From Chryseobacterium scophthalmum (GTDB lineage: Bacteria; Bacteroidota; Bacteroidia; Flavobacteriales; Weeksellaceae), in NCBI RefSeq assembly GCF_900143185.1, contig NZ_FSRQ01000002.1, forward strand, positions 496,001 to 560,000: a DNA stretch of 64,000 nt, read 5' to 3'. The position numbers and the translations under genes are program-made. Below, piece after piece: positions 35,859 through 50,304 of this stretch; the first letter of the stretch is position 1, and the number at the start of each line of letters is the position of its first letter. The notes under the pieces were generated by a model. The model had not been told where the DNA came from. It saw only the letters and a program-made list of their open reading frames with translations, and did no database searches.

Positions 35859-37253
35859 TTATTTCAAGCTTCCCACCATGTCTTCTGGTTTTACCCATTC
35901 GTCAAATTGTTCAGAAGTTACAAAACCAAGATTGATAGCTTCTTCTTTTAAAGTTGTTCCGTTTTTGTAAGCTGTTTTAGCAATCTTTGCGGCGTTTTCA
36001 TAACCAATATGCGTGTTTAATGCGGTTACCAACATCAAAGATTTGTCAACCAGTTCTTTAATTCTTTCATGATTCGGCTCGATTCCCACTGCACAATGGT
36101 CATTGAATGAAATACATGCATCGGCAATCAATTGGGCTGACTGTAAGAAATTGTAAGCCATTACCGGTTTGAAAACATTCAGTTCATAATTTCCCTGAGT
36201 TCCTGCAAAAGAAATTGTGGTATCATTTCCTAAAACCTGTGCACAAACCATTGTTAACGCTTCGTTTTGAGTAGGATTTACTTTTCCCGGCATAATAGAA
36301 GAACCCGGTTCGTTTTCAGGAATATGAATTTCACCAATTCCTGAACGAGGTCCAGAAGCTAATAATCTTATATCCTGAGCAATTTTATATAAAGAAACTG
36401 CCAATTGTTTTAAAGCTCCGTGAGTTTCTACAATAGCATCATGAGCAGCCAAAGCTTCAAACTTATTTTCAGCAGTTACGAAAGGAAGGTTGGTGAATTT
36501 TGCAATATATTCCGCTACTTTTACATCATAACCTTTTGGAGTGTTCAATCCTGTTCCTACCGCAGTTCCTCCTAAAGCAAGCTCAGAAAGATGAGGTAGT
36601 GTGTTTTTCAACGCTTTAATGCCGTAATTTAATTGGGCAACATATCCTGAGAATTCTTGTCCTAAAGTCAACGGAGTTGCATCCATCAAATGCGTTCTTC
36701 CGATTTTTACAATGTCTTTAAAAGACACTGCTTTTTCGTTCAACGTATTTTTTAGTTTCTCAACTGCAGGAAGGGTTACTTCAACCACTTTTTTGTAAGC
36801 TGCAATATGCATCGCAGTTGGATAAGTATCGTTGGAAGACTGAGATTTATTTACATCATCATTCGGGTGAACTTCTGATTTGTCGCCTAAAGTTCCGCCA
36901 TTATTTACATGTGCTCTGTTTGAAACCACTTCATTCACATTCATATTCGATTGTGTTCCAGATCCGGTTTGCCAAATCACCAAAGGAAATTGGTCATTCA
37001 GTTTACCGTCTAAGATTTCATCGCAAACTTTTGCGATCATATCTCTTTTTGAAGCCGGAAGAACTCCCAAATCCGTGTTGGTAAATGCTGCCGCTTTTTT
37101 TAAATAAGCAAAAGCTTCGATAATTTCGTGAGGCATAGAACCTTCCGGTCCGATTTTGAAATTGTTTCTAGAACGTTCTGTTTGTGCGCCCCAAAACTTA
37201 TCTGCAGGAACCTGCACTTCACCCATGGTGTCTTTTTCTATTCTGTAATTCAT
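35859..37253 (-). CDS. fumC: Class II fumarate hydratase
   Basis: Reversible hydration of fumarate to L-malate in the TCA cycle, iron-independent and oxygen-stable. The 464-residue homotetramer has the family signature [15 protein letters not shown], with the catalytic serine in the mobile loop, plus [13 protein letters not shown] and [20 protein letters not shown]. It is divergent from a class I fumarase across a 319-base gap. Confidence 0.97.
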
Positions 37254-37572
37254 TGTGATTGAAATATTTGTTTCTGTTTAGTTTTAAATTTTAATCATAA
37301 ACTGAAAACACAAAAATTATCTGTTCAGTTTGTCATTCCGTAGGAATCTAAACGATTTACATTAAATTCTTTGCTGAGATTCCTGCGGAATGACAAACTC
37401 GATGTCTATTAATTAAAACTTTCTTGATTTTATGATTAAAAAATCTTCCTATAAAATTACTCAATAATAAAAAACCTCGCAATTTATAATCATTATAAAT
37501 ACGATGATAAGTCGCTGATTTTGCTCATGTTTTTTTTCGTAAGCCGTATTTTTGCACTGAAATAGAAAGTAA
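37254..37572. promoter_or_regulatory. Divergent intergenic region between the fumarases
   Basis: Holds the palindromic element at 37328-37398 and a promoter for the class I gene: TTTG (37520-37523), 23 bases, TATTTTTG (37547-37554), 18 bases before the ATG. The A/T-rich segment 37480-37510 contains an imperfect palindrome (tataatcattata) that could be a regulator site. No fumC promoter could be placed with confidence. Confidence 0.6.
37328..37398. repeat. Palindromic dispersed element, copy 2 (71 bp)
   Basis: The 22-base arms 37328-37349 and 37377-37398 match at 21 of 22 bases, and the left arm is identical to the arm at 4157-4178. The centre is unrelated to copy 1 in sequence and differs in length. 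Confidence 0.85.
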
Positions 37573-39180
37573 ATGGATTTTAAATATCAAGATCCGTATC
37601 CAATTTTAAAAGATGATACGGAATACAAAAAATTGACTTCAGACTACGTGAAGGTTGAAAAGCATGGGGAAAGAGAAATTTTAACAGTAGATCCGAAAGG
37701 ATTGGAATTGCTGGCTGAAGAAGCAATGGCAGACGTTTCTTTCATGCTTCGTTCTTCGCATTTAGAAAGTTTGAGAAGAATTATCGATGATCCTGAAGCT
37801 ACGGATAACGACAGATTTGTTGCTTATAATTTATTGCAAAATGCTGCAGTTGCAGTGGAAGGTGCTTTGCCTTCGTGTCAGGATACCGGAACGGCGATTG
37901 TGATGGGTAAAAAAGGCGAAAATGTTTATACCGGTGTAGAAGACGGTGAATATTTAAGCAAAGGAATTTACAATACCTACCAAAAAAGAAACTTAAGATA
38001 TTCTCAGGTGGTTCCTTTAACGATGTTTGATGAGAAAAATTCTGGTTCAAATCTTCCGGCACAAATCGATATTTATGCTAAAAAAGGAAATTATTACGAA
38101 TTTTTATTCCTGACGAAAGGAGGAGGTTCTGCTAACAAAACTTTCCTTTATCAAAAGACAAAATCTTTATTGAACGAAAAATCTTTGGAAGCTTTTGTAA
38201 AAGAAAGAATTTCAGATCTGGGAACTGCGGCTTGTCCGCCTTATCACTTAGCTTTGGTGATCGGAGGAACTTCTGCAGAAGCCAATTTGGCTGCTGTGAA
38301 AAAAGCATCAGCAAAATATTATGACAATCTTCCAACTGAAGGAAATGAAGCAGGTCAGGCTTTCAGAGATTTGGAATGGGAAGCAAAAGTTCAGAAGATC
38401 TGCCAGGAAAGTGCCATTGGAGCACAGTTTGGTGGAAAATATTTAACGCATGACGTGCGTGTGATCAGACTTCCTCGCCACGCGGCTTCGTGCCCGGTTG
38501 GAATGGGAGTTTCTTGTTCGGCAGACAGAAATATTAAAGGGAAAATTACCAAAGACGGCATCTTCTTAGAGCAATTGGAGCAAGATCCGAAAAGATTTTT
38601 ACCGGCAACTCCGCCACATTTGGAAGAAGCGGTTGAAATTAATTTGAATAAGCCAATGCCTGAAATTTTGGCTGAATTGTCTAAATATCCAATCAAAACA
38701 AGACTGAAATTAAACGGAACTTTGATTGTTGCGAGAGATATTGCTCACGCAAAAATCAAAGAATTATTGGATGCCGGAAAACCAATGCCTGAATATTTCA
38801 AAAATCATCCGATTTATTATGCAGGACCGGCAAAAACTCCGGAAGGAATGGCTTCAGGAAGTTTCGGACCTACAACTGCGGGAAGAATGGATGTTTATGT
38901 AGACGAGTTCCAAAGTCATGGTGGAAGCATGGTGATGTTGGCAAAAGGAAACAGAACGGCAGATGTTACCAATGCTTGTCATAAATACGGAGGTTTCTAC
39001 ATCGGTTCGATCGGAGGTCCTGCTGCAATTTTGGCAAAAGACAATATTTTGTCGGTTGAGGTAGTAGATTTCCCTGAATTAGGAATGGAAGCGGTAAGAA
39101 AAATTGAAGTAAAAGATTTCCCTGCATTCATTATTACCGATGATAAAGGAAATGATTTTTTTGCAAATCTTGCCCATTAA
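37573..39180 (+). CDS. Class I fumarate hydratase, 4Fe-4S enzyme
   Basis: An iron-sulfur hydro-lyase of 535 residues of the one-subunit (FumA/FumB) type. The alpha-domain cysteine region is [14 protein letters not shown], then [14 protein letters not shown], and [13 protein letters not shown]; the beta domain carries [15 protein letters not shown]. It catalyses the same reaction as FumC but is oxygen- and iron-sensitive. Fe-S need implies a link to the SUF system. Neighbouring FumC suggests a switch between iron-rich and iron-poor or oxidative states, as inference. Start codon and promoter spacing are clear. Confidence 0.95.
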
Positions 39181-39750: not shown

Positions 39751-40650
39751 TTATCCCAATCTCAGTTTTTCCGGTGATACTCCGAATTTTTTCTTGAAGG
39801 CTCGGGTGAAATTCTGAACATATTCATAACCGCATTCTATTGCAATTTCTTTAATCATAATTCTATTGTTGACGATCATTTTTTTTGCTTTCAGCATTCT
39901 GAGTTCTGAAATGTAATTTACAATAGTCGTTTGATATTGTTCTTTAAATTCTTTTCTCAACTTATTCTGATTGATACCTATTAATTTAGAAATCTCTTCA
40001 ATTTTTAGATTTTTATGATAGTTTTCATCTAAAAATTTCTTGATCGTTTCAGGAGTTTTAGATAGATCTTCTTCGATATCTTTTTCATTAAACTGTTCGA
40101 ATATCAGAATTAAAAGTTTGATAATTTTAGCTTCAATAAAGAGTTTCTGCATTATTCCTTTTTTAGAATATCCCAAAATCTCCTTTAAGATCATATGCAT
40201 TTCCACCGTCATATTTGGTGGAGTCTGTTTATGAAGAAAAATAAAATTATTATTCTTCATGTTTTCCAGAATTTCTGCACTTTCAATAGTAGAATGAGGA
40301 TCAATTAAATCAAAAATGTATTTATAATTGACCTGTATCTGAATGTATTTTAAAACTTCCTGATTTTCTGTCCATAATTCAGCTCTGTTTTCCGAAGAAG
40401 AATAATGAAGGATGTACTGATTCTTTTTGAATTTAAATTGAGTGCCACAATCTGAAGCCTGCAAATTGATGTTCGGACTCAGCAAAAACAACAAATTAAA
40501 ACTAGATTCTCCTTCAACAAAATGAGATTGTAAGTAATTTTCATTCGTTGCATCTTCATTAAAAATCACTTTAATGTCCTCAGATTTAAATAGTAAGCCT
40601 CTTTTCGTCTGTTTCATTGTTCGAAGCGTTTTTGTTTCCATATTACTCAA
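39751..40650 (-). CDS. AraC-family transcriptional regulator, likely controller of the adjacent T9SS cargo genes
   Basis: A 299-residue protein with an N-terminal region without a recognised ligand fold and a C-terminal AraC/XylS double helix-turn-helix: first helix pair LKIEEISKLIGINQNKL, second IMIKEIAIECGYEYVQNFTRAFKKKFGVSPEKL. Starts at 40650, 40641 or 40614 are possible. It faces away from the cargo genes and its 5' leader contains the repeat pair at 40665-40694. This suggests activation of the cargo genes and control of its own gene, as inference. The inducer is unknown. Confidence 0.85.
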   Translation of the reverse strand: MSNMETKTLRTMKQTKRGLLFKSEDIKVIFNEDATNENYLQSHFVEGESSFNLLFLLSPNINLQASDCGTQFKFKKNQYILHYSSSENRAELWTENQEVLKYIQIQVNYKYIFDLIDPHSTIESAEILENMKNNNFIFLHKQTPPNMTVEMHMILKEILGYSKKGIMQKLFIEAKIIKLLILIFEQFNEKDIEEDLSKTPETIKKFLDENYHKNLKIEEISKLIGINQNKLRKEFKEQYQTTIVNYISELRMLKAKKMIVNNRIMIKEIAIECGYEYVQNFTRAFKKKFGVSPEKLRLG

Positions 40651-40664
40651 GTAAGAGCCTGCAT

Positions 40665-40730
40665 CCGATAAGTGAAAATTTGAAAATGATAACTAGGGAT
40701 TTAAGATGCAAGTTACTTTTGCAAAAGTAA
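40665..40730. promoter_or_regulatory. Operator repeats and divergent promoters for the AraC gene and cargo gene 1
   Basis: Direct repeats CCGATAAGT (40665-40673) and ATGATAACT (40686-40694) start exactly 21 bp apart, two helical turns. After 19 bases follows TACTTTTG (40714-40721), the -7 box of the cargo gene. Directly abutting, TACTTTTG lies on the minus strand at 40722-40729 as the likely -7 box of the AraC gene. The two boxes form an 18-bp palindrome (40713-40730). Confidence 0.6.
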
Positions 40731-40764
40731 ATTAAATTTAGAATAAATAAAAACAATATGTATT

Positions 40765-42845
40765 ATGTTTAGAAATTTATATTCTTCAGTTGCAAAACTC
40801 TGTTTAAGTGTTTTTGTGCTATCGATTGCATCAAGTGATTTTGTAAAAGCTCAACAATGGCAAAATGTGGGCTCATCAGCGAATGTTTCTGCAGGCGGAA
40901 GCAGTTATAATAATTTAGTGATTGATAATGTAGGGAACTATTATCTTTCGTATTATGATGTTTCAGTTCAGAAAGGTTCAGTTCAGAAATTTAACGGAAC
41001 TTCATGGTCTTATGTGGGAGGAAGTCCAGGAATTACCTCAAGTTATGCAACTTTCAATTCATTATCGATTAATTCTACGGGAACAGATCTTTATTATACC
41101 AATCAAGGAAATGGTTTAGAAGTTCGTAAGTTTAACGGTACTTCTTGGACACAATTGGCAAGCCCGACAACTTCAACGATTAATTATCACGCTTCAGCGG
41201 TTGCTCCGTCTGGAACATTGTTTACGTACAGCACTCAAAGTTCAGGAATTGTAAAAAGATTGGTGAATGGAGCTTGGGAACAAGTTGGAAATGCTGGTTT
41301 TTCTAATGGAGCCGCATTTGCGGAAATGGTCATTGGCACAAATAATAAAGTGTATACTTGTAATGTAGCGAGTGGAGTAAGGGTTTATGAAAATACAACA
41401 ACCGCTACAACTTCTGATAATTGGAACTTGGTAGGTGGAAGTATTGTAGATGCATCGTCATCAGGTGAACAGTATACTTCGGATATTGCAATCGATAACA
41501 ATAACAATTTGTATGTTGCCTATGTCTCAAACTCTGCAAATTCTAGAAAAGTAAATGTAAAGAAATTCAACGGCATTAGTTGGGAGCAGGTTGGGAATGC
41601 TTATTTTTCATCAGGAGGAGTTCAGCATGTTGCAATTGCAGTAACATCTGCAGGGAAACCTTATGTTGTAGCAAGTCGTTGGGAAGATGATAATTTTCTG
41701 AAAAACACTGCCTATCAATTAGATATAGCTACCAATACTTGGTCTACGTTTGGGGGTAATTTTATTTCTGATGATGAAGCTACTTATAACGATTTGGTGG
41801 TTGATAATGTAAATAATTTTCTTGTTTTAGCTTATTCTCAGGATTTTACAAAGGTTAAAAGAATTTCTATTGCCCCTTCAACTCCGGTTTGTAATAATAC
41901 AGATCCGGGAACCAATCCGGGAGATGTTGGTTGTGTAACCTTTAACTATAGAGGTCAATCGGTCACTTACACTACGGTAAGAGGAACGGATGGTAAAATC
42001 TGGCTTCAGCAAAATTTAGGAAGTACAAAGGTGGCAACTTCACTTACAGATTCAGATGCATATGGAGATCTTTTCCAATGGGGAAGATGGGATGATGGTC
42101 ATCAGCTGAGAAATTCATCTTTATCAGCTACAGCTCCTTCACCAAATAATCCTTCAGGGTTAAATGGAGGAAATGCAGCTTTCCATTCTGCGGCATATAA
42201 TTCGTCTTCAAACTTTTGGTCTGGAGGAACTGATTCTGATACCTGGACCGCAGAAAACGCTTCCGCTGCAACGGCAACAAAGGGGGCAGACCCTTGTAAA
42301 GCAATCGGCTTAGACTGGAGACTTCCAACCGTTGGGGAAATTGACGCAGCTATGACCGCAGAAAATATTTCAGAATATAATTCGGCACTTTCAAGTCATT
42401 TAAAACTGATTCCTGCAGGAATGAAGGATTATAGCGGTATTTTCTCTCCTGGAACACGACTTTATCTTTGGTCTTCATCAGCATCACCATATACAGGATC
42501 TGGTCAACATTTATATATCAGTGGATTTCAACTTTATCTAACAGCGCAAGCAGAGATGCGGGAATGTCTGTAAGATGTATAAAAGATGTTACCACCGGAT
42601 TGGGAACTTCAGAAATTAAAAAAGTAACCATCGGAGTTTATCCTAACCCAACCAATGGAATTTTAAATATTAAAACAGATTCTGAAGTTAATGCCGTAAA
42701 CGTAACCAATGTTGTCGGGCAAAGATTGAAAATTCAGTATTCGAATAATCAAATTAATATGCAAAACTTACCAAGTGGAGTTTATATTGTAGAAATGATA
42801 TTGAAAAACGGACAAAAAATTTCTAAGAAAGTAATTAAAAACTAA
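40765..42845 (+). pseudogene. T9SS-exported FISUMP protein, cargo gene 1, frameshifted
   Basis: Signal peptide, then propeller-like repeats with the pattern FNGTSWxxVG over about residues 35-360, a FISUMP domain (TYTTVRGTDGKIWLQQNLG, then LFQWGRWDDGHQ) and a T9SS type A sorting domain (IGVYPNPTNGILNIK to the end KKVIKN). One base is missing near 42526-42528 (a three-T run), so the first frame stops at 42573 and the sorting domain lies in another frame. Restoring the base gives 693 residues, exactly the length of the neighbouring paralogue. As written, the product would lose its sorting signal and stay unexported. Confidence 0.85.
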
Positions 42846-42944
42846 CATTCATTTAATATTTGACTCGCTTTAGACGGTTGTTTCTTTTTGAAATTGCCGT
42901 CTAATACTTTTATATTCAGATGAATGACAATCATCATGTTTGAT

Positions 42945-43001
42945 ATGATAACTAAAAAATGGGAAATGATAACTCTTTGTTTGTTTTCAAGATTAATTTT
43001 G
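42945..43001 (+). promoter_or_regulatory. Operator repeats and promoter of cargo gene 2
   Basis: Two perfect ATGATAACT repeats (42945-42953 and 42966-42974) start 21 bp apart, followed after 19 bases by TAATTTTG (42994-43001). The block has the same length (57 bp) and geometry as 40665-40721, and both genes also share the leader aatttagaataaataaaaa before the ATG. Confidence 0.65.
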
Positions 43002-43047
43002 CCGAAAATTATAAAATAATTTAGAATAAATAAAAATAGAATTATTT

Positions 43048-45129
43048 ATGTTTAAAAATTTACAATCAAAAATAAAAAGAATGGGAGCCGGATTTGGTGT
43101 CCTTTATATCGCAGTAGGTTTACTGAATGCTCAACAATGGGTTGATGTAGGTTCTGCAGGAAGTATTTCCACAGGTGGAAGTAGTTATAATAATCTGGCG
43201 ATTGATGTACAGGGAAATTATTATGTTTCTTACTATGATGTTTCAGTTACAAAAGGCTCGGTTCAAAAATTTAATGGAACTTCTTGGTCATATGTTGGAG
43301 GAAATGCAGGAATTACAACTGCCACAGCAACCTATAATTCGCTTTCATTAGATACGTCAGGAAATGTATATTATACCAATCAATGGGGTTATCCCAACTC
43401 AGGAATGGAAGTAAGAAAATTTGACGGAACATCATGGAGTTTACTTTCTCTTCCATTTACAGATACAACAAATTATCAGGCATCAGCAGTGGCTCCGAAT
43501 GGTATTCCGTATGTGTATGCATCTGTGGGTTCAGGAACTGTGAAAAGATTGGTTAACGGAGCTTGGGAACAAGTAGGTCCTACAAATATTGCAGGTGCAA
43601 ATCCAACTCATGCAGAAATGGTTATCGGAACAAACGGAAAGGTTTATGTTTGTCATATTGCATCCGGAGTAAGAGTTTTTGAAAATAATTTAACAGCTTC
43701 TTCAACGGATGCGTGGTCTTTAGTTGGTGGAGCTTCAGTGGGTAGTGCATTCACAGAGGGTGCAAATGCAACTTCAGATATTGCAATTGGATCAGACAAT
43801 ACTTTGTACGTTATATATTCATCCACAGCAGCAAATAACAGAAGGCTGAATGTGAAGAAATTTGACGGAACAAACTGGGTGCAAGTTGGTAACGCCGATT
43901 TTGGAATTTCAAACGACTTGTATAATGTTTCTATTGCGGTTACTCCTTCTGGTAAACTGTACACTGTAGCAAGCGGATGGGCTGTAAATGGTGGGAAAAA
44001 CACAGTTTACGAATTTGATTCAGCGAACAATACTTGGACAGCTTTTGGTGGAGATTTTGTATCAGATGGTACCGCTTTATATAATGATTTACAATATGAC
44101 GCAGTAAACAATACTTTGGTCCTTACTTATTCTCAAAATGGAGTAAGAGTGAAGAGGGTTCAATTGCCTACTACAACACCTACATGTAATAACGCAGATC
44201 CCGGAATGAATCCAGGAGATACAAGCTGTGTAACTTTTACTTACAAAGGTCAGCAAGTAACTTACACGACAGTAAGAGGATCTGATGGTAAAGTTTGGCT
44301 TCAGCAAAACTTAGGAAGTAGACAAGTGGCGACTTCTATGGCAGATTCAGAATCTTTCGGTGATCTTTTCCAGTGGGGAAGATGGGATGATGGCCATCAA
44401 AACAGAAATTCTGCTACAACAACAGTTCCGACAATCAATAATCCTACAGGTCTTTCTGGTATTACATCATTTATTTTAGGAAATAATCCTGCGTGGTGGT
44501 CAACAAATGCTTCAAATGATCTTTGGAATGGAGCGAATACTTCAGCAATAACCTCAGAAGTAAGTGTTGATCCGTGTAAGGCAATCGGTGCAGGCTGGAA
44601 ATTACCTTCTCAGGCAGACTGGGTTACTGTTGTAAGTGCAGAAGGGATGTCTAGTGCAGCAAATGCATTTACCAGCAAATTAAAATTACCTGCAGCAGGC
44701 TATAGAAGTCAAAGTTCAGGAGGATTCACTTATGTTGGTGAAAGAGGATATTATTGGAGCGGAGATGTAGCCAATTCTGGGGGGAAATATTTATATAATT
44801 CTACAGCTTTGGCTAATCCAAATTCTGGTGGACCAAGAGCTCAGGGTCAATCGATAAGATGTATAAAAGAGGTTACTACAGGCTTAGGAACTTCAGATAT
44901 CAAAAGAAATGTTATTGGAATTTACCCCAATCCTACGAACGGAATTTTAAATATTAAAACAGATTCTGATATCGATAAAGTAAACGTTACCAATGTTGTA
45001 GGACAAAAAATGAATGTACAGTTTTCAAATAATACAATCAATATGCAACAGCTTCAGAAAGGAGTTTATATTGTTGAATTACAATTGAAAAATGGGCAGA
45101 TAATTTCTAAAAAAGTAATTAAAAACTAA
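43048..45129 (+). CDS. T9SS-exported FISUMP protein, cargo gene 2
   Basis: A 693-residue secreted protein, full-length paralogue of the gene at 40765. Signal peptide ending near LNAQ, propeller-like repeats (VQKFNGTSWSYVGG, VRKFDGTSWSLLS, VKKFDGTNWVQVG), a FISUMP domain (TYTTVRGSDGKVWLQQNLG and LFQWGRWDDGHQNRN) and a T9SS type A sorting domain (IGIYPNPTNGILNIK, ending QIISKKVIKN). The sorting domain is cleaved as the protein crosses the outer membrane. FISUMP is a domain of unknown function found in surface proteins. The gene is probably an adhesin-like or carbohydrate-related cargo, but this is not shown. Confidence 0.85.
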   Translation: MFKNLQSKIKRMGAGFGVLYIAVGLLNAQQWVDVGSAGSISTGGSSYNNLAIDVQGNYYVSYYDVSVTKGSVQKFNGTSWSYVGGNAGITTATATYNSLSLDTSGNVYYTNQWGYPNSGMEVRKFDGTSWSLLSLPFTDTTNYQASAVAPNGIPYVYASVGSGTVKRLVNGAWEQVGPTNIAGANPTHAEMVIGTNGKVYVCHIASGVRVFENNLTASSTDAWSLVGGASVGSAFTEGANATSDIAIGSDNTLYVIYSSTAANNRRLNVKKFDGTNWVQVGNADFGISNDLYNVSIAVTPSGKLYTVASGWAVNGGKNTVYEFDSANNTWTAFGGDFVSDGTALYNDLQYDAVNNTLVLTYSQNGVRVKRVQLPTTTPTCNNADPGMNPGDTSCVTFTYKGQQVTYTTVRGSDGKVWLQQNLGSRQVATSMADSESFGDLFQWGRWDDGHQNRNSATTTVPTINNPTGLSGITSFILGNNPAWWSTNASNDLWNGANTSAITSEVSVDPCKAIGAGWKLPSQADWVTVVSAEGMSSAANAFTSKLKLPAAGYRSQSSGGFTYVGERGYYWSGDVANSGGKYLYNSTALANPNSGGPRAQGQSIRCIKEVTTGLGTSDIKRNVIGIYPNPTNGILNIKTDSDIDKVNVTNVVGQKMNVQFSNNTINMQQLQKGVYIVELQLKNGQIISKKVIKN

Positions 45130-47665: not shown

Positions 47666-48835
47666 TTAGTTATCCAGTTGTTTCCAGGCAGACCCTGTCC
47701 AGCCGAAAAAATGCTGATCTTGAAAAACAATTGTTCCTTCACCACCATTTGGAATAGGAGTGACAGCGCCATCGGTCAAAGCATTGTCGGAATAATCTGT
47801 GGAAATTTTTAGAGCACCATCTATATCCAATGTCTCTGCGGGATCTATATTATTAATACCTATTTTTCCTGATGGTGCAGCTTCTGTTCCGGTAAGTTCT
47901 GTTCCGAAAATTGCACCTCCAATGTTGAGTTGATTGCTCCCAGAGCTAGAGGTTACATCTTGTTTAGCTCCGATAATGATATTATTGGTCGTACCATCTG
48001 CAATTTTATTTCCTGCTGTAAATCCGATTGCTATATTGTGGCTTCCTGTTTTATTATTGATGTTTGATAAAGTGCTGTGTCCGATCGCAATATTTTCATA
48101 ACCTGTTGTATTAAAAAGAAGGCTGCTTTGTCCTACTGCGATATTTCCATTGCCTGTCGTATTCGCAACCATAGCGTTATTACCTATTGCTACATTTAAG
48201 GCTCCTGAAGTGCTATTATATAAATTGTAACTACCTACCGCAACATTATGTGTACCTGTGGTGTTTTTTGTCAAAACCTGATTCCCTAATACTGTATTAC
48301 TGCTTTTATTACCTGTTCCCCTTCCTACGGTAATGTCATTCACGATTAAATCACCTCCTGTAATGGCTTTAATCTCATTCTTTGAATTTTTTGTATGATA
48401 AATTCGCACCTTTTCGGTATTATTAGTTTTCATTACAAAATCACTAGAATTTGTAGTTCCTATAAAATTATCTGCTGAAGCTGTGTTCCCAGAAATAGAC
48501 CAATTGTTTCCTGTGTTTACTTTTTGCCAAACATCACCATCAAAATAGAAAATTCCTATACTCGTTACATTTTTTGTTTTGAGACTTACATCTGCAATAT
48601 TTAATGGTGAGGTTACATATACAATAGCGGATTTTTGGTCAACGTTGTAAAGGCTATCCTTTGCTTTTAGTTCGGTTCCTGTAAGCCTTGGAACAATGAC
48701 TCCATCAATTTTTGAAAAATCTGATGGAGTTGCCATAATGTCTAAGGTTGCTTTTGGGCTTTCGGTGTTTATTCCCACTTGGGCAATCGAAATAATAGAA
48801 CCTAACATACTTATTATTAGTATTATTTTCTTCAT
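47666..48835 (-). CDS. Secreted surface protein with trimeric-adhesin-head-like repeats
   Basis: A 389-residue protein with a signal peptide (KIILIISMLGSIISIAQ). The segment about residues 180-290 has repeats of about 17 residues with the pattern N(V/I)A(V/I)G, for example HNVAVGSYNLYNSTSG, LNVAIGNNAMVANTTG and GNIAVGQSSLLFNTTG. These match the left-handed beta-roll of YadA heads and tail-fibre proteins. The start (QVGINTESPKATLDIM) and end (FFGWTGSAWKQLDN) follow a pattern common in flavobacterial surface proteins. No T9SS domain is seen. Confidence 0.7.
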   Translation of the reverse strand: MKKIILIISMLGSIISIAQVGINTESPKATLDIMATPSDFSKIDGVIVPRLTGTELKAKDSLYNVDQKSAIVYVTSPLNIADVSLKTKNVTSIGIFYFDGDVWQKVNTGNNWSISGNTASADNFIGTTNSSDFVMKTNNTEKVRIYHTKNSKNEIKAITGGDLIVNDITVGRGTGNKSSNTVLGNQVLTKNTTGTHNVAVGSYNLYNSTSGALNVAIGNNAMVANTTGNGNIAVGQSSLLFNTTGYENIAIGHSTLSNINNKTGSHNIAIGFTAGNKIADGTTNNIIIGAKQDVTSSSGSNQLNIGGAIFGTELTGTEAAPSGKIGINNIDPAETLDIDGALKISTDYSDNALTDGAVTPIPNGGEGTIVFQDQHFFGWTGSAWKQLDN

Positions 48836-49387: not shown

Positions 49388-50304
49388 TCACACAAGGTGA
49401 TTCTGCATTTCTACATCACGTGACCTTTCATTACGAAACGCTTCAGGAGTACAGTACATATATTTTTTAAAATATTTGTTAAAATTAGACTTGTCTGAAA
49501 AACCTAATCTCCCTCCGATTTCGTTTACCGTAAGGTCGGTACTCTTTAGTAGCCTTTCTGCCTCCAAAATTATACGTTCTTTAATAATTGTTCCTGTAGA
49601 CTTTCCAAATTTTGCTTTAGAAATTGTGCTTAGATAATGAGGTGTAATACACATTTCGTTTGCATATTCTTTTGGGAGTTTCCATTCTTTGAACTTCATG
49701 TCAATCAGTTCTTTAAAGTTTTGTGCCAATGTACTTTTATGGTTTTTTTTCAGTAAAATAGAATCGGTTCCTAGATTAAAATACCTTTTATACTTTACCA
49801 AGGCAGCTTTCAAATAAAGACAAATCAATTCTTTATATTCATTTTTAGACCTGCGATATTCGTTTTTAACAAGATTTGCCAAAGAAATCCATTCTTTAAT
49901 AGAAGATGCATCAACATCTATATATGGTACATCTCCAAGATTTATCAGATCGCTTTTTATCTTTCGGTTTCCGGTATAGATATGATTGTAAAAAGATTTT
50001 GTAAAATTAATCATAAAACCCTTCGCGTTTTTTAATTCTTCCCAAGAATGTATTTGTCCGTAAGTCATTAAAAAAATACGATTTTTTTAATTTTATAGGA
50101 AATTGAATCGATTGTGTGAGAGCCAAATCCAGACTCAATGATTAACAATGAATAAAAATCATGACGATGATTATGCCTTAAGCTTTTTACATGAACTGAA
50201 AAATCTTCTAAGCTACAGATATTAAAACCTTCTAATTGTTGGATGGTAGGAACTAAATTATTTACCGAGTATGTACATAAGTCATTGCTTTCTTCCACTA
50301 TCAA
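49388..50304 (-). pseudogene. AraC-family transcriptional regulator, frameshifted
   Basis: The N-terminal piece (50068-50304) has the cupin-like arm HNHRHDFYSLLIIESGFGSH and the C-terminal piece (49388-50068) the double helix-turn-helix (YANEMCITPHYLSTISKAKFG, then VNEIGGRLGFSDKSNFNKYF, trimmed here to their cores). Adding one base to the seven-T run 50082-50088 joins them as KKNRIFLMTYGQIHSWEEL, the usual cupin-arm strand of this family, giving 305 residues. The start is TTG at 50304 or GTG at 50298, since an in-frame stop lies upstream. As written, the reading frame is broken between the ligand arm and the DNA-binding domain. Confidence 0.75.

Follow-up and report, generated by a model that had tools for sequence, protein, structure and literature searches.

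PchR, YbtA and AlcR stand under Fur control and are encoded in a divergent layout. The araI1-araI2 site of E. coli AraC has two direct half-sites with a 21-bp period, of which the proximal one reaches the -35/-33 region. AraC-family regulators of iron uptake include PchR, YbtA, AlcR, MpeR and DesR, and the first three are activators of siderophore genes (PMC7600106, in part). In Riemerella anatipestifer, the Fur box was predicted as the 19-bp ATTTAGAATTATTCTAAAT, is reported to lie no more than 100 bp from start codons, and Fur shifted four promoters in gel assays (PMC5609570, in part). At the core promoter of F. psychrophilum, TAnnTTTG occupies -12 to -5 (PMC9723704, in part), a numbering that we assume to hold in Chryseobacterium. 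Bidirectional prokaryotic promoters, as treated in passages of PMC12825309, have a shared pseudo-symmetric core and divergent starts, and in E. coli activating one arm can repress the other.

The locus described here lies in a 64-kb stretch of Chryseobacterium scophthalmum DNA, the whole of which was analysed and is called the window. It resembles PchR, YbtA and AlcR in that an AraC-family activator appears tied to iron control, whereas the apparent targets are T9SS surface proteins and not siderophore synthesis or TonB receptors. It shares with araI1-araI2 two half-sites at a 21-bp period and a proximal copy at the -35/-33 region; unlike E. coli AraC, it has the Bacteroidota -7/-33 core, a different half-site and no known ligand. 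The putative Fur boxes are of the 19-bp ATTTAGAATTATTCTAAAT type of the same bacterial family, but the Chryseobacterium sites consist of one strong half and an A-rich second half, and the gel shifts reported in the available text of PMC5609570 concerned four promoters other than the cargo and araC ones. As in bidirectional promoters, a pseudo-symmetric core would be shared by divergent starts, although the examples in the accessible part of PMC12825309 are E. coli -10 elements and here a mirrored Bacteroidota TAnnTTTG pair is found genus-wide. We propose, with a probability of about 70%, that the locus is a feed-forward switch in which Fur represses both araC and the cargo genes and AraC activates the cargo. 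Such a switch may be a variant of the known PchR/YbtA-type logic with T9SS surface-protein targets. A limited literature search found no published description of the AraC-cargo pair, and no papers on FISUMP or on a Fur box in Flavobacteria or Chryseobacterium. The main text of an Elizabethkingia iron paper (PMC7221216) does not mention Fur, AraC, FISUMP or T9SS, and the available portion of the MliR paper (PMC9478572) has an AraC-domain gene among MliR targets and no Fur box.

Regulator, cargo genes and repeat pairs

The regulator gene is on the minus strand at 39751..40641 and encodes 296 aa from the ATG at 40641. The initial annotation, which placed a divergent AraC gene at 39751-40650, assigned the family correctly (PF12833 68.5 bits, PF00165 52.6 bits, both above cut-off), and the TTG at 40650 is a possible alternative start. 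Residues 198-296 form a C-terminal double helix-turn-helix that matches solved AraC-family chains. The AF2 model has low confidence (mean pLDDT 66) and predicts a cupin-like N-terminal beta domain (strands 12-105) followed by the C-terminal helix-turn-helix helices; with this low-confidence model, Foldseek matches ToxT, CuxR, CsvR, Rns and cupins. By eye, a second ORF with an AraC-like C-terminus is seen at 49388-50068, near another secreted-looking protein at 47666-48835.

Two tandem T9SS cargo genes had been annotated on the plus strand, which holds for the second and needs amending for the first. Cargo gene 2 (43048..45129) is intact, with 693 aa, a predicted beta-propeller, a FISUMP-like region and a T9SS type A tail in frame (PF18962 46.2 bits, cut-off 27). 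Cargo gene 1 (40765..42573) has 602 aa as read and ends before its T9SS tail owing to a frameshift, the tail being in another frame in the ORF at 42468-42845 (PF18962 48.3 bits). Sequencing error may be the source of this frameshift. Among six two-gene loci, the first copy is broken in two (the window and L003) and intact in four (L001, L002, L004 and L029). The propeller of gene 2 is well predicted at approximately residues 40-370 (mean pLDDT 67 for the whole model), and the closest folds to the modelled domain are lectin and glycoside-hydrolase propellers. FISUMP (Fib_succ_major) matches in gene 2 are below cut-off (PF09603 23.4 bits against 33.9, TIGR02145 27.4 against 41.65), and a PDB sequence search with the cargo returned T9SS tails only, at E 0.06 and 0.11. 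Six of 30 loci (L009, L012, L017, L020, L024 and L027) carry a short cargo of 348-395 aa from which most or all of the propeller is gone, and all six retain the signal peptide, C-terminal part and promoter. Judged from these six of 30 loci, the outer cargo module is what appears to change beneath a constant promoter.

Before gene 1, repeat copy 1 (CCGATAAGT, 40665..40673) would cover approximately -61 to -53 of the cargo start and copy 2 (ATGATAACT, 40686..40694) approximately -40 to -32, the expected place of a -33 element, with numbering inferred from F. psychrophilum. The cargo -7 box (TACTTTTG, 40714..40721) begins 28 bp after copy 2 does. At gene 2, both copies are ATGATAACT (42945..42953 and 42966..42974), followed by a -7 box with no mirrored counterpart (TAATTTTG, 42994..43001); all of these elements are on the plus strand. 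The repeat positions, the 21 bp between copy starts and the 19 bp from copy 2 to either box are as first annotated. The two 57-bp blocks had also been called identical, and here the annotation fails, as only 36 of 57 columns agree: geometry is common to both, sequence is not. Upstream of gene 2, a third copy (ATGATAAGC) stands a further 21 bp away in L003, L004 and L029, and in the window (42924-42932) it has decayed to ATGACAATC.

Exact ATGATAACT occurs only three times on both strands of the window. The pattern GATAA-N16-GATAA-N21-TAnnTTTG, which was picked after the sites were seen, is found in two places only, namely the two blocks. A chance or compositional origin was rejected: 120 random sequences, each 64 kb long and matched in second-order composition, do not contain this pattern once. 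The bare 21-bp pair with up to three mismatches is not enriched (37 matches versus 46 for a reversed control), and single weak pairs alone therefore mean nothing.

An AraC genome scan gave 29 named orthologous loci, all titled Chryseobacterium, with a cargo homologue divergent to araC in every one. The initial annotation had called for a search of relatives for the repeat pair, its 21-bp spacing and the box 19 bp downstream, and these are kept in 36/36 cargo promoters (30 araC-facing ones from the window and the 29 loci, plus six second-copy ones), each with two GATAA spaced 21 bp apart and TAnnTTTG 28 bp after copy 2 begins. Counts of 180/180 and 108/108 follow from the search pattern and are set aside as evidence; in the unforced MAFFT alignment, which covers 20 of the 30 intergenic regions, the columns without variation include those of both GATAA, of the -7 letters and of the downstream block. 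For comparison, agreement with the window across 18 distant loci is 261/776 (34%) at araC fourfold sites and 189/540 (35%) in the 30 bp upstream of copy 1. In a clade of six genomes copy 1 reads GATTA, and both spacings are unchanged. All 36 promoters have what would be AraC/XylS-type direct-repeat half-sites, about two helical turns apart and beside the core promoter. The T located 13 bp after each copy's G is invariant in copy 1 and present in at least 90% of promoters in copy 2, a distance that, we infer, a single AraC monomer could span with its two helix-turn-helix motifs.

A Fur-box-like block and a mirrored core promoter

Just after the cargo start, an invariant block reads ATTTAGAATAA[A/T]TAAAAA. 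At gene 1 the Fur-box-like site (ATTTAGAATAAATAAAAAC, 40736..40754, without assigned strand) would lie at approximately +11 to +29 of the cargo and -37 to -19 of araC and scores 13.1-13.3 bits; at gene 2 (ATTTAGAATAAATAAAAAT, 43019..43037, likewise unstranded) it would lie at approximately +14 to +32 and scores 15.4-16.3 bits. Scores come from a matrix of all 11 Riemerella sites printed in the accessible text of PMC5609570, which matches the block in 36/36 promoters at 13.1-18.5 bits. In 18 of the 36 promoters the block contains ATTTAGAATAATTAAAAAT, one letter off a Riemerella site printed there, ATTTAGAATAATTAAAAAA. Agreement with the printed consensus is imperfect (14/19 letters for gene 1, 15/19 for gene 2), and p in shuffle tests of single promoters ranged from 0 to 0.03, so that not every value is very small. 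With a symmetrised matrix, the gene 2 site ranks as the second-best distinct place in the window and the gene 1 site as the fifth. The best place is ATTTATAATCATTATAAAT at 37482-37500, between two divergent fumarase-like genes (35859-39180) that we take to be fumarases of class II and class I, and the site would be consistent with a switch between them that responds to iron or peroxide. The same two fumarase-like genes adjoin araC in several other loci.

The block is also found elsewhere in the window's own genome, with 24 sites at up to one mismatch versus two for the reversed pattern, and the 21-bp Fur pattern at up to three mismatches has 40 sites versus 10 reversed. Five of the sites elsewhere in the genome are exact: three before TonB receptors, one between a T9SS-tail gene and a TonB receptor, and one before an ankyrin gene. 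Ten genes beside such sites, picked by eye, comprise six with a TonB-receptor plug, one PepSY_TM, two with T9SS tails (one below cut-off) and one with ankyrin repeats. Other block sites fall within coding regions or close to genes that have no evident connection to iron, and many of the nine promoters-with-mismatch sites are inside or distant from genes with no iron link. Three FUR-domain proteins in this genome score above the PF01475 cut-off; the block may be bound by any of the three, or by a PerR/Zur-like one. On contig 3 (approximately 304.4-305.7 kb; L075, L092 and L098), Fur-like boxes are shared by a TonB receptor and two more genes with T9SS tails, a hint from sequence that further T9SS cargo may be linked to iron. 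On contig 1 (808.7 kb; L109), an ankyrin-repeat gene has TAnnTTTG followed by a Fur-like block, like the cargo genes.

Directed towards araC, a mirrored -7 box (TACTTTTG, 40722..40729, minus strand) is the only TAnnTTTG on that strand in the stretch examined. A minus-strand TAnnTTTG 8-10 bp from the cargo box is present in 28 of 30 araC-facing promoters (missing in L020 and L025) and in 12/12 further araC-facing stretches, of which L223 and L225 repeat L026 and L027. Both boxes read TACTTTTG in the window's clade and TAATTTTG in most others. Among 13 cargo promoters that do not face araC (six second copies, L202, L203, L204, L205, L207, L213 and L227), only one, L207, has a mirror box, and it has no divergent gene. 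A mirrored core facing a divergent gene is the hallmark of a bidirectional promoter, and by its sequence this promoter would be one. Because the -7 box is mirrored, the putative Fur box would lie over the araC -33 region.

Separated genes, distribution and other readings of the elements

The promoter is 24-234 bp from araC in 35 of 38 genomes compared, and far from it in three (47.6 kb in G154, 45.7 kb in G205 and 56.4 kb in G255). In these three, the displaced cargo retains the pair, the 28-bp spacing, the -7 box and the block, and araC (approximately 50% identity) is still beside its usual neighbours. Unlinked second cargo copies in G244 (L207) and G253 (L227) likewise retain the pair, 28-bp spacing and -7 box, with no exact downstream block in L227; in L206 (G284) the pair is retained and the -7 box is degenerate. 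Where araC stands apart from the cargo (L210-L212), TAAATTTG precedes its start by 31 nt, a Fur-like block lies just upstream of this box, and there is no repeat pair. G219 has a split promoter, with the pair, -7 box and block and no mirror box on the cargo side and, on the araC side, TAACTTTG and a Fur-like block upstream of that side's own -7 box, without the pair. G271 has lost its first cargo gene, and what remains facing araC is the mirror box, the block and a single GATAA. As far as these promoters can be compared, it is the repeats that went with the cargo after gene separation and the putative Fur box that went with both genes.

These loci bear on whether the block is a Fur site at all. 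It lies between the cargo -7 box and the ATG and is extremely constant, and Bacteroidota have A-rich leaders in place of Shine-Dalgarno sequences (PMC6847099, in part), so that it could be a 5' leader element for translation or mRNA stability beneath an AraC-only switch. At the separated araC genes, however, the block is upstream of the -7 box, and hence outside that mRNA, and in opposite orientation to araC. Copies of it in the window's own genome also point both ways, some of them preceding -7 boxes, near TonB receptors, and it matches a Fur box backed by gel shifts in the same family, as the consulted part of PMC5609570 reports. The own-genome copies and the separated araC genes rule against the leader reading, which we consider unlikely.

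We give a still smaller chance to the repeats being an AraC site through which AraC represses the cargo or mainly its own gene. The repeats would fall in the araC leader, and there is precedent in PchR, which is reported to activate fptA and repress its own gene (PMC7600106, in part). Against this, the repeats keep a constant distance to the cargo -7 box and accompany cargo genes that have moved, the displaced araC genes have no repeat pair, and the -33 region, which shows no other evident -33 element, is taken up by copy 2, as is typical of activation.

Distribution across genomes was followed with model R1, a sequence-only model of the 92-position promoter built from the 36 sequences, including the window's two. 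In the window's own 4.47-Mb genome, R1 finds the two cargo promoters at E 4e-17 and 2e-15, the next best match being at 0.03, with no comparable third site among the 150 of 10533 first-look candidates that were scored. A large AraC regulon in this genome was thereby rejected, and the PchR/YbtA-type control of siderophore synthesis or uptake genes is not seen there. Of the 296 family genomes sampled, R1 matches 156 at E<=0.01. The window's genus accounts for 122 of these, and in none of the 122 is the best E above 6e-9; the remaining 34 are from other genera and match weakly (E 1.7e-5 to 0.01), and the one of them inspected (G064) has no repeat pair. The AraC protein is found at E<=1e-50 in 122 of the 296 genomes, all of the window's genus and with one match per genome, and these are the same genomes as the 122 with strong promoters; some are also among the 29 named loci, and thus not all are independent of R1. 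At least 20 genus members have neither an AraC nor a promoter match. Within the 20 listed members that have no AraC, a cargo homologue (E<=1e-30) is absent in 18, and the other two have shorter homologues with neither the FISUMP-like part nor the GATAA pair. L208 and L209, from two genus members that have no AraC, each encode a propeller protein that is shorter and ends in a T9SS-like tail, and a different putative regulator gene adjoins it.

That another DNA-binding protein recognises the GATAA repeats and the araC linkage is incidental is very improbable: the AraC-repeat contact is read from sequence, and GATAA is short and A/T-rich, but co-occurrence is 122/122 at the thresholds used, with one AraC match per genome and even where the genes are 46-56 kb apart, and the promoter is likewise unmatched in all 20 genus members listed as lacking AraC, of which 18 have no cargo homologue (E<=1e-30) and two a shorter one with no GATAA pair.

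The initial annotation had AraC activating both genes from the repeats. Strict spacing, perfect co-occurrence in the sampled genomes and repeats that stay with moved cargo all point the same way, so this part probably stands. It was nonetheless incomplete, having missed the Fur-box-like block downstream, the mirrored TAnnTTTG for araC and the frameshift in gene 1.

A proposed feed-forward switch and its meaning

In the feed-forward switch that we favor, AraC would bind two direct half-sites, each GATAA with a T 13 bp after the G, at a 21-bp period. With copy 1 starting at approximately -61 and copy 2 at approximately -40, the promoter-proximal copy would cover the cargo -33 region, as for class II activators, and AraC would recruit RNA polymerase to a TAnnTTTG core that appears to have no obvious -33 element of its own. 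The Fur box would be positioned directly downstream of the cargo start and, on the other strand, over the araC -33 region, and given these positions iron-loaded Fur would repress araC and cargo alike. Under iron scarcity Fur would leave, AraC would accumulate and the surface protein would be switched on, activation probably also involving a signal bound by the cupin-like domain. With twin AraC sites and a Fur site, production of the surface protein would thus call for both iron scarcity and an active regulator. The loop would be a coherent feed-forward one, with Fur on both arms and AraC on one. Strong cargo activation should lower araC transcription, since a single core would be shared by the two directions and the repeats would be crossed by the araC transcript; this bidirectional-promoter effect would add negative feedback on araC.

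We also put forward, tentatively and with more doubt than confidence, that AraC senses an iron- or heme-linked molecule or a glycan of the host or environment, and that the lectin-like propeller protein is a T9SS-exported scavenging or adhesion factor of iron starvation. The locus would then be a genus-wide iron module built from T9SS cargo and not from siderophores, with one symmetric core and one shared Fur box.

If the proposed feed-forward switch is right, it would provide a testable wiring diagram for the control of T9SS surface proteins in Bacteroidota and would tie T9SS cargo to iron starvation. The separated loci would form a natural series of a split or moved bidirectional promoter, in which each element follows the gene that it serves, and a half-site and spacing would be defined for a Chryseobacterium AraC-family protein.
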